Assembly (NCBI GenBank): GCA_024280855.1
Contig: JAJRPG010000055.1
Span: 1 to 39,142 of the forward strand
DNA length: 39,142 bases
Origin: Planctomycetota bacterium
GTDB taxonomy: Bacteria > Planctomycetota > Phycisphaerae > UBA1845
Direction of reading: 5' to 3'
The notes below the pieces were generated by a model, which was not told where the DNA came from, made no database searches, and worked only from the letters and a program-made list of their open reading frames with translations. Position 1 is the stretch's first letter. Each line of letters opens with the position of its first letter. A program made the translations under genes and the position numbers. This document shows positions 2,145 to 33,413 of this stretch, piece by piece.

Positions 2145-2213
2145 AAAAAAACTCCCCTGGCTGGTGTCCCAGTCAACCAGAGGAGTTCCTTCCCCACACA
2201 CGCGAGGAAGGTT
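2145..2213 (-). ncRNA. Candidate ~70-nt small RNA with two abutting hairpins
   Basis: Read on the minus strand, the predicted transcript starts at about 2213 and folds at once into a first hairpin (CCTTCC/GGAAGG, plus-strand 2188-2211). With no spacer it continues into a second hairpin (AACTCC/GGAGTT plus CTGG/CCAG, 2150-2187) that ends in U7 (2145-2151). A sigma70-like promoter sits exactly upstream (separate entry). The unit lies about 200 bases after the metallo-hydrolase stop and about 240 bases before cheV, so it could also be an attenuated leader of cheV. I do not recognise it as a known RNA family, and no plausible ORF fits inside it. Confidence 0.6.
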
Positions 2214-2218
2214 TGTGC

Positions 2219-2246
2219 AGTATAACAAACGATGTGGCTAAGCCAA
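2219..2246 (-). promoter_or_regulatory. Sigma70-like promoter of the candidate small RNA
   Basis: On the minus strand, the -35 element is TTGGCT (2246-2241), the spacer is 16 bases and the -10 element is TATACT (2224-2219). Transcription would begin about 6 bases further on, at the foot of the first hairpin. The position, not just the hexamers, supports the call. Confidence 0.5.
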
Positions 2247-2415: not shown

Positions 2416-3315
2416 TTATGACGGAAGTTTTAGGCTTTTGTAGATGGCTTCTAGCCAGCCGTCGGTTTTGATGAACCCGCCGGCCCAATCGTCCCACTTC
2501 GCTGACAGGCCTGCGGCTTTGATATCTTCTAACGATTTTCCAGATTTCACTTGCTTGCGCACTACATCGATCGTGCCTAATAGCATCGCTTGATAAGCTT
2601 TTAGATCATCGAGCGTCGAAATAGGCCCATGTCCTGGAATGATTTTGACGTCTTTGGGCAACTGCTCGATAACGGTTGCGACGTTGCGAGCGACGCCGAG
2701 GACGTTGCCGCCGTGGTCAATGTCAACAAAGGGGAACATGCCTGCGAACATAAGGTCGCCCATGTGAACGACATTGGATTTTGGGAAAAAGATGACACTG
2801 TCACCGTCGGTGTGTCCGTGGGGTAAGTGTAGCGCTTTGATTTCCTCGCCGTTGAAATGCACGGACAAGGATTCGTCAAAGGTGATGACGGGCAGTGCCT
2901 GCTTGGGTAAAGGGCCTACTTCTTTGCCAAATAACATTTGCTTCGTGGCTAATCGCGATCGAACATTTGTATGGGCAATGATCAAAGCTTGTTTACCAAA
3001 GACTTCGTTGCCGCCGGTGTGGTCGCCGTGCCAGTGGGTGTTGAGTAAGAATTTGAGTTTTCCCTTGTTTAATTTGTCGAGGGCGGTTTGGATTTTTATT
3101 GATAGCGGCGCGAACTGGTCGTCGATCATTAACAAGCCATCAGGGCCTGCGCTCACGCCGATATTTCCCCCTCGGCCTTCTAGCATGTATATGTTGCCCG
3201 CGACGTGGTGTGTCTTAATGGTTACATCAGACATCCCTTGCTGTGCACTTGCATAATTGCCACAACAAGTCATGTTTATGGCTATAACGATAAGGGTGAC
3301 GATGCGTGCATTCAT
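2416..3315 (-). CDS. Exported metallo-beta-lactamase-fold hydrolase
   Basis: This 299-aa protein has a signal peptide (residues 1-24, cleavage near YASA) and an MBL fold. The metal-binding motif HxHxDH is intact (NTHWHGDHTGGN, H94, H96, D98, H99). Further ligands follow in LPHGHTDGDS, VHMGDLMF and IIPGHGP. The MBL fold binds one or two zinc ions and hydrolyses a range of substrates. The sequence resembles periplasmic MBL-fold proteins of the subclass-B2/quinoprotein-relay-like type, so substrate cannot be assigned. The start at 3315 is set by GGGAGAG six bases before the ATG; an upstream ATG at 3366 has no such site and would put 17 residues before the signal peptide. The stop is followed about 230 bases later by the hairpin and U-tract of the candidate small RNA, which would also end this transcript. 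Confidence 0.85.
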   Translation of the reverse strand: MNARIVTLIVIAINMTCCGNYASAQQGMSDVTIKTHHVAGNIYMLEGRGGNIGVSAGPDGLLMIDDQFAPLSIKIQTALDKLNKGKLKFLLNTHWHGDHTGGNEVFGKQALIIAHTNVRSRLATKQMLFGKEVGPLPKQALPVITFDESLSVHFNGEEIKALHLPHGHTDGDSVIFFPKSNVVHMGDLMFAGMFPFVDIDHGGNVLGVARNVATVIEQLPKDVKIIPGHGPISTLDDLKAYQAMLLGTIDVVRKQVKSGKSLEDIKAAGLSAKWDDWAGGFIKTDGWLEAIYKSLKLPS

Positions 3316-3416
3316 TTCTGCTCTCCCATAATAATAAGCGATACGAAACTCAATCGATGTAAGCATGTTAGTCGGTTAATTGGGTGCATGATAGTTTCGG
3401 CGTACCTTGAATCATG

Positions 3417-16965: not shown

Positions 16966-17010
16966 AAATATTCGCACTAAAGCCAAGCTTTTGGGCCTAG
17001 CCCGCAACCT

Positions 17011-17044
17011 CACCCGGCACAGCCCCAATTGGCCGGGCCGGGTG
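17011..17044. terminator. GC-rich hairpin between convergent rnpA and HTH gene
   Basis: A perfect 8-bp stem CACCCGGC/GCCGGGTG (17011-17018, 17037-17044) with an 18-base loop lies in the 97-base convergent gap. No U-tract follows directly (the next T-rich stretch is about 10 bases away), so it may pause or protect rather than fully terminate transcription. Confidence 0.4.
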
Positions 17045-17062
17045 CGTTACAGAATTTTGTCG

Positions 17063-25925: not shown

Positions 25926-26275
25926 AAGTGTAGGAGATTATAGCTAGGTATTTTTCGGACGCACTATTTTATTTAATACGTCCTAAAGTTCGACGCATTT
26001 TGGGCGTGAATCCCTGCAAATATAGCCCTCCATGAGTTTTTCAAGCCAGATTGTTTTGCATAGCTGCTCGCCGGCTGGGCGTATCGTACATTCGCATTGG
26101 AGGGGGACGAAGCACAGCTGACTGGGGGGTTGGCCAACGGGGGTTGCGGCGATTTATCGTTGCGCTCTCGCTGGCCAGCCTTTGCGGTTTGCGTAGCTCC
26201 TATTGTGGGAGGAACCGGTTATGCGAATCGGCAGGGGGAATGAATGTACTCGCATATCGCTTAGGGGGAAGTATT
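25926..26275. other. 350-base divergent gap with a TATAAT box for addA and an overlapping upstream ORF
   Basis: On the minus strand TATAAT (25942-25937) sits just before the addA start. On the plus strand the frame upstream of the lipoprotein protease stays open from 26051, but the best start signals are later. A small ORF at 26221-26373 (50 codons) has an excellent ribosome-binding site, GGGAGGA, seven bases before its ATG, in a different frame from the protease it overlaps. Confidence 0.45.
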
Positions 26276-32885: not shown

Positions 32886-33413
32886 CTATCGACCAAAAGT
32901 CATAGCCAATTGCTGATCGTCCATCGCCCCTTCGAGTTGCAGGAGCCTCTTTTTTTCGCGCACGCCGTTAGGCGAGGAGAATCCGCCTAACGAACCATTA
33001 CTACAAAGCACGCGATGACAGGGGACAAGTAGCGGTAGCGGATTGTTAGCCATGGTGCTTCCCACCGCTCGCGCAGCTTGTGGGCTTCCCGCTGCACGAG
33101 CGAGGTCCGCATAAGAGGCCGTTTGGCCATAGGGGATGCGCTGACAGGCTTTGATGACCTCCCCACGAAACGGTGTTAGATGAGTCAGGTCGAGAGGCGC
33201 TGAAAAGCGAACCGTCGATCCGCTAAAGTATTTTTTTATTTGCTGACAAAGTTCTGGCACTATAGATTTGGATTCAACTGCCTCAGGCCAATCATGGTGA
33301 ATGCGTTTGAGAATCTTTTGTTGAGGCCCAGGCAGGTAAGAAGCTACCACTTTTGCATGATGTTCTACTACCCCGAAAAAGCCCCAGTCAGTCTCTAATA
33401 GTTTGTATTTCAT
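32886..33413 (-). CDS. ogt: Methylated-DNA-[protein]-cysteine S-methyltransferase
   Basis: This 175-aa protein repairs O6-alkylguanine by moving the alkyl group to its own cysteine, once per molecule. The acceptor C132 lies in the invariant LVPCHRVLCSNGSLGGFS. The helix-turn-helix before it (IPYGQTASYADLARAAGSPQAARAVG) flips the base, and the Asn hinge (MANNPLPLLV) is present. The N-terminal domain is the short Ogt type; there is no AdaA region, so it does not act as a regulator. It is divergent from the secreted-protein array to its right. Confidence 0.92.
   Translation of the reverse strand: MKYKLLETDWGFFGVVEHHAKVVASYLPGPQQKILKRIHHDWPEAVESKSIVPELCQQIKKYFSGSTVRFSAPLDLTHLTPFRGEVIKACQRIPYGQTASYADLARAAGSPQAARAVGSTMANNPLPLLVPCHRVLCSNGSLGGFSSPNGVREKKRLLQLEGAMDDQQLAMTFGR

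Follow-up and report, generated by a model that had tools for sequence, protein, structure and literature searches.

A known bacterial small RNA close in design to the locus reported here is RepG of Helicobacter pylori, the product of an intergenic gene that forms two stem-loops and uses its terminator loop as the pairing site (PMC8295292). The RepG loop is C/U-rich and reads G-repeats in a known target. H. pylori is not known to encode Hfq. Another point of comparison is provided by the CsrA-titrating RNAs of the CsrB/RsmZ type, which carry GGA in hairpin loops and belong to hosts that encode CsrA. Within the phylum of interest, the Rhodopirellula-1 motif is a candidate structured RNA of Proteobacteria and Planctomycetes, to which the present locus can be likened by description only (PMC2864571). 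Small RNAs of this group are sparsely represented in a review table that holds 8 entries for the PVC group versus 345 for Proteobacteria (PMC9029176), and a limited look at the open-licence literature found no paper characterising small RNAs in Phycisphaerae.

Here, we analyzed a window of 39,142 nucleotides (the whole stretch of DNA under study, contig JAJRPG010000055.1 of assembly GCA_024280855.1) from a planctomycete of the class Phycisphaerae, in which the original prediction had placed a promoter, two hairpins and a T run in a compact arrangement. We regard this unit as a probable free-standing small RNA gene, judging by its sequence and that of its homologues. It resembles RepG in having two stem-loops, an intergenic position and a terminator loop that is a candidate pairing site; an exposed and conserved terminator loop was found in all four known copies. 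The likeness is one of design, with no homology claimed, and the loop sequence differs, being GGGACAC here. With CsrB/RsmZ-type RNAs the unit shares a GGA in a hairpin loop and a host that encodes CsrA, but it is much shorter, has few GGA and does not conserve ANGGA.

Anatomy of the unit

All predicted parts were confirmed at their coordinates on the minus strand, from 2246 to 2145. The sigma-70-like promoter (2219-2246) consists of a -35 element TTGGCT (2246-2241), a 16-nt spacer and an extended -10 element TGTTATACT (2227-2219), in which TATACT occupies 2224-2219 and TG lies one base upstream of it. Six bases separate the -10 element from ACCTTCC, the opening of hairpin 1. The putative small RNA of ~69 nt (2145-2213) is delimited by its fold and homologues, with a predicted start at 2214-2212 and a predicted end at the T run. 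Hairpin 1 (2188-2211; CCTTCCTCGC-GTGT-GTGGGGAAGG) has 10 bp, and its 5' CCTTCC does not differ among the four copies. An AA linker joins it to hairpin 2 (2152-2185), the terminator stem, which carries the GGGACAC loop at 2164-2170 and can adopt two near-equal forms, one with a UUGA bulge and GACA loop (-19.7 kcal/mol) and the other with 12 bp and a 10-nt loop (-19.1 kcal/mol). Together with the T7 tract that follows (2145-2151), hairpin 2 forms a Rho-independent terminator at the 3' end of the RNA. Outside the unit, on the same strand, a metallo-beta-lactamase-fold gene (2416-3366; Pfam PF00753) lies upstream, and cheV (979-1902; CheW and receiver domains in Pfam) starts 242 nt after the T run.

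The strength of this anatomy was compared with chance within the window. The minimum free energy of the 76-nt unit was -39.5 kcal/mol, as good as in none of 200 dinucleotide shuffles (z -5.4), and 11 of 13,022 sliding 76-nt frames of the window, at four separate places, folded at least as well. The other three places, 16981-17056 (-), 26119-26194 (+) and 33055-33130 (-), had folds of -45.6, -44.0 and -41.0 kcal/mol, respectively. Fold strength is thus notable but not unique within the window. Promoter matches of the unit's quality occurred at chance level (6 found versus 6.8 expected in 6 kb), and a simple terminator scan did not list the unit's terminator. As promoter matches are at chance level and similar folds exist elsewhere, the anatomy alone would not settle the nature of the unit; its above-chance status comes from the conservation described below.

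The claim that no ORF fits the unit proved slightly too strong, as a mechanical 140-aa ORF (2075-2497) crosses it, and the three copies from its genus have no stop codon along the RNA in two of three frames. A coding reading, perhaps with the exception of a micro-peptide, was nevertheless rejected, with a conservation pattern that does not look coding-like and a hairpin 2 that is invariant at third positions too. The string AAACCTTCCT had been reported to recur in the cheV leader, and two occurrences were indeed counted in the window (0.06 expected), at 1940-1949 in the leader and at 2205-2214 at the RNA start, both on the minus strand. A longer alignment between unit and leader was weak, and the recurrence is best treated as coincidence: 11 of 500 shuffles reached the alignment score and other places in the window scored higher, so the leader was rejected as a duplicate of the unit. 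Membership of a known RNA family was also rejected. None of the 4227 families of Rfam 15 reached its gathering score in the window, where the weak matches (E up to 10) were at chance level. The best of them overlapping the unit, the PyrR site RF00515 (15.4 bits, E 8.5) and Chlorobi-1 RF01696 (11.3 bits, E 2.2), compare with gathering scores of 54 and 50.

Conservation within the genus and changing neighbours

Lack of conservation in related genomes had been named in advance as grounds for abandoning the small RNA idea, and this was not what we found. Both other genomes examined for the genus (G001 and G002) carry the unit, as does the genome of the window (G000), with one copy per genome among the matches reported. 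The G001 copy is 90% identical over 111 bases and the G002 copy 86% over 105 bases; the remaining genomes in the same search gave short matches only, at E 0.025 or worse. Identity was counted by segment for the pairs window/G001, window/G002 and G001/G002, in this order. The promoter agreed at 26, 21 and 21 of 28 positions and the hairpin 1 segment at 18, 17 and 21 of 24, while hairpin 2 with one flanking base (2151-2185) agreed at 34, 35 and 34 of 35 (0-1 changes) and the T run at 8 of 8 in every pair. Past the T run, the next ten bases agreed at 8, 7 and 7 positions, and the twenty bases starting 12 nt beyond it at 7, 2 and 6. The neighbouring metallo-beta-lactamase-fold gene was identical at 721 of 900, 670 of 896 and 677 of 895 positions (75-80%). 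By these counts, conservation of hairpin 2 and the T run far exceeds that of a protein gene and the flanking DNA beyond them is scrambled; the promoter is somewhat better or equally kept, and hairpin 1 is about equal to the gene and no better. The T7 tract itself is kept in G001 and G002. A second terminator of the window's genome, at L023 230-268 (G000:C82, about 142129-142167) behind a gene that we take to encode ribosomal protein S9, shares its terminal GGGGAGTTTTTTTATGC with the unit, which suggests that the ATGC conserved downstream of the T run may occur commonly in this genome.

Each genus copy has its own promoter at the correct spacing. All three retain the extended -10 TGyTATACT; an exception is the -35 element of G002, which reads AGGGCT. 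This bears on the alternative that the unit is the mere 3' terminator of the metallo-beta-lactamase-fold gene, possibly yielding a processed 3'-UTR RNA. The gene does lie upstream of the unit, on the same strand, in all three genus genomes; yet the distance from its stop codon to the promoter varies from 135 to 408 nt (169, 135 and 408 nt in the three genomes), the extended -10 stays at fixed spacing, a terminator has no need of base-level loop identity, and a metallo-beta-lactamase-fold gene was not established as the upstream neighbour among the ORFs of the more distant G013 locus (L030). We consider this explanation improbable.

The downstream side was informative for the other alternative raised at the outset, an attenuated leader or riboswitch-like element of cheV. 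Although the window has cheV on the unit's strand, 242 nt from the T run, the suggestion that related copies might also precede it failed, with cheV in one of the three genus genomes and the unit in all three. No match to cheV was found in G001 or G002 at E <= 1e-20. The next gene after the G001 unit is unrelated and encodes a Kelch-repeat protein, and the next gene in G013 is a convergent folD; the G002 contig ends ~136-137 nt past the unit, and the comparison of downstream genes accordingly covers the window, G001 and G013. In all three the downstream gene differs, and the unit is conserved independently of it. Together with the lack of any Rfam family at gathering score in the window, this makes a cheV leader highly improbable. 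Of the two possibilities originally offered, the free small RNA stood, with a conserved unit, its own promoter, changing neighbours and a stem kept despite sequence changes in G013, and the leader did not. As a separate observation, the presence of cheV in the window's genome but in neither congener implies a gain or loss of this gene within the genus.

A diverged copy and the limits of the family

A covariance model built from the three genus copies only (R1, without G013) was searched against 51 family genomes. It matched G013, a genome of another genus of the same family, at G013:C78:113689-113752 with 25.4 bits (E 4.2e-4 per genome, 51 genomes searched), which is modestly above the noise, as the next-best chance matches reached 22.1 bits. 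Within this match, CCTTCC and GGGACACCAGCC are identical to the window. A pattern of the two motifs occurred in G001, G002 and four unrelated stretches in 257 Gb of genomes, and ~0.004 occurrences were expected in the 51 family genomes, a figure to be read in the light of the pattern having been drawn up after G013 was seen. At the four unrelated stretches, the second model (R2) gave no match of weight. The G013 copy has a promoter, TTGTCG-16-TATCAT, spaced as in the window and again six bases from ACCTTCC; nine of its 12 positions match at the expected place (chance probability 0.005). Its T run is shorter (ATTTTCT), and it adjoins folD on the opposite strand. E-values of R2 flatter any strong terminator, as demonstrated by an ordinary terminator in G473 scoring 35.1 bits, and the case for G013 consequently rests on R1, the pattern and the promoter. 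On these grounds, the G013 copy is very likely a homologue of the unit.

Base pairing was compared without and with this copy. Within the genus, two-sided changes were seen in none of 25 pairs, and each of 500 shuffles paired at least as well; four hairpin 1 pairs varied on one side, and pairs 9-26 and 31-66 were each lost in two of the three copies. With G013, four of 24 pairs changed on both sides, a number reached by one of 500 shuffles, where all four changes lie in hairpin 2, all come from one sequence and two are the outermost pairs. Over the alignment, 92.4% of cells paired, which six of 500 shuffles reached and slid controls did not approach (47.8-60.9%), in a G013 register chosen among several MAFFT runs as the fitting one. 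Folding of single copies gave z -2.8 for G001 and -3.5 for G002. When trimmed at the T run, the G013 copy folds into both hairpins, more weakly (z -2.1), and extending its 3' end gives a different best fold. Hairpin 1 weakens from -16.5 kcal/mol in the window to -12.7 in G001 and G002 and -8.6 in G013.

Only four convincing copies emerged from sets of 51 family, 114 order, 397 class and 392 phylum genomes, which overlap; searches of over 40 genomes used strict filters with 12-42 candidates scored per genome and may have overlooked diverged copies. In the 51 family genomes, R1 returned 24 matches, comprising the three genus copies, the G013 copy and 20 others (11 of these 20 inspected as sequences). 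R2 returned 13 matches in the order (the four known copies and nine others, all inspected) and 13 in the class (the four known copies, one inspected before and eight new ones, all inspected), where none of the eight new matches had a promoter of 9/12 or better. Its two matches among the phylum genomes were the window's own genome and the G473 sequence mentioned above, a gene terminator without hairpin 1. A model that includes the promoter (R3), run on 40 family genomes, recovered the four known copies and one match in G024 (E 0.045). This match (L133, G024:C237:80-174, +) scored 24.0 bits and has an extended -10 TGATATAATG rightly placed and two weak hairpins; it carries neither CCTTCC nor the loop, and is probably due to chance. 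In another family, L071 (G228:C7:63122-63189, -) presents tandem hairpins with a CCTTCC arm paired to GGGAGG and a terminator whose loop contains GGGAC, followed by T7; it scores 25.5 bits with R2 and lacks a promoter of 9/12; it is possibly a very distant relative, possibly a chance match. A mobile element or phage origin was rejected, with no match in phages, plasmids or, for the exact pattern, viral contigs. A narrow, lineage-restricted RNA family is the best reading of this distribution.

Host machinery and candidate modes of action

Hfq was found in none of eight genomes, in a search whose control was positive in five of 14 control genomes. An Hfq-dependent trans-acting small RNA is unlikely given this result. 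A CsrA gene, in contrast, was found in 50 of 51 family genomes, including all four carriers of the unit (control positive in three of 14 genomes). The window's genome has another CsrA-like stretch (G000:C35:1439-1588, +), which a TAG interrupts.

One alternative is a decoy or CsrA-bound small RNA, in which the GGA in the loop and that at the hairpin junction would titrate the protein. Two GGA, one of them at the loop, are kept in all four copies 17 nt apart, and CsrA is able to bridge sites separated by 10-63 nt (PMC7652899). The CsrA core ANGGA (PMC6028588 and PMC7652899) is present in the window and G013 copies but absent from those of G001 and G002, the GGA count does not exceed that of shuffles (P 0.12-0.52), the GG at the loop site is for the most part base-paired in the genus copies (unpaired probability 0.21-0.24 in the three), and titrating RNAs such as CsrB have many more GGA (22). 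Since two copies lack ANGGA and GGA shows no enrichment, we treat CsrA titration as a rival, not as the best reading, and judge it to have a small chance of being correct.

A different small RNA, pairing through the invariant 5' CCUUCC and masking the Shine-Dalgarno sequence (AGGAAGG), was also considered. All four copies agree in CCTTCC but differ in the partner arm, and SD-like sites of the form AGGAAGGTN{3,11}ATG numbered 13, 19 and 16 versus 10, 8 and 6 in a reversed control. However, SD sequences produce an excess over a reversed control anyway, and nearly all of the arm is paired in every copy, the exception being one mismatch base in G001 and G002. Only two ORF pairs behind such sites were shared, both between G000 and G001 and neither with G002 (a membrane-protein-like frame, 86.5% identical over 297 aa, and a 41-aa frame), and no target was common to the three genomes. 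Pairing through CCUUCC is an unlikely mode of action.

The terminator loop differs from the CCUUCC arm in being open, with GACA unpaired at a probability of 0.96-1.00 in all four copies. Loop pairing was chosen as the preferred mechanism, since no other element of the RNA combines exposure with identity in all four copies. According to this proposal, the sigma-70-type promoter would start transcription at about 2213, and RNA polymerase would cross two abutting hairpins and stop at the T run, releasing a compact ~69-nt RNA that would most likely act in trans without Hfq. Hairpin 1 would cap and protect the 5' end, and the exposed GGGACAC loop would pair with GUGUCCC-like sites in target mRNAs. 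GTGTCCC was searched for in the window only, where its sole occurrence is the complement of the RNA itself. The same observations would also fit a protein that binds the loop.

We infer transcription, the RNA ends and action in trans from sequence. With the mechanism discounted, a free-standing small RNA gene is a fairly likely explanation; pairing through the terminator loop is a possible mode of action, put forward tentatively. The full proposal, a new Hfq-independent small RNA family of Phycisphaerae in which the terminator ends the transcript, its GGGACAC loop is the sole pairing or protein-binding site and hairpin 1 is a 5' cap, is more doubtful still. The RNA family is new; its kind, a free-standing bacterial small RNA gene with an intrinsic terminator, is already known.

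Overall, reading promoter, hairpins and terminator from sequence alone can reveal a conserved RNA gene missed by Rfam. If the terminator-loop reading is true, the unit would represent a design of RepG type reached by convergence, in a phylum with few named small RNAs. If transcribed, the RNA would offer a handle on post-transcriptional control in Planctomycetota that have CsrA and no detectable Hfq.
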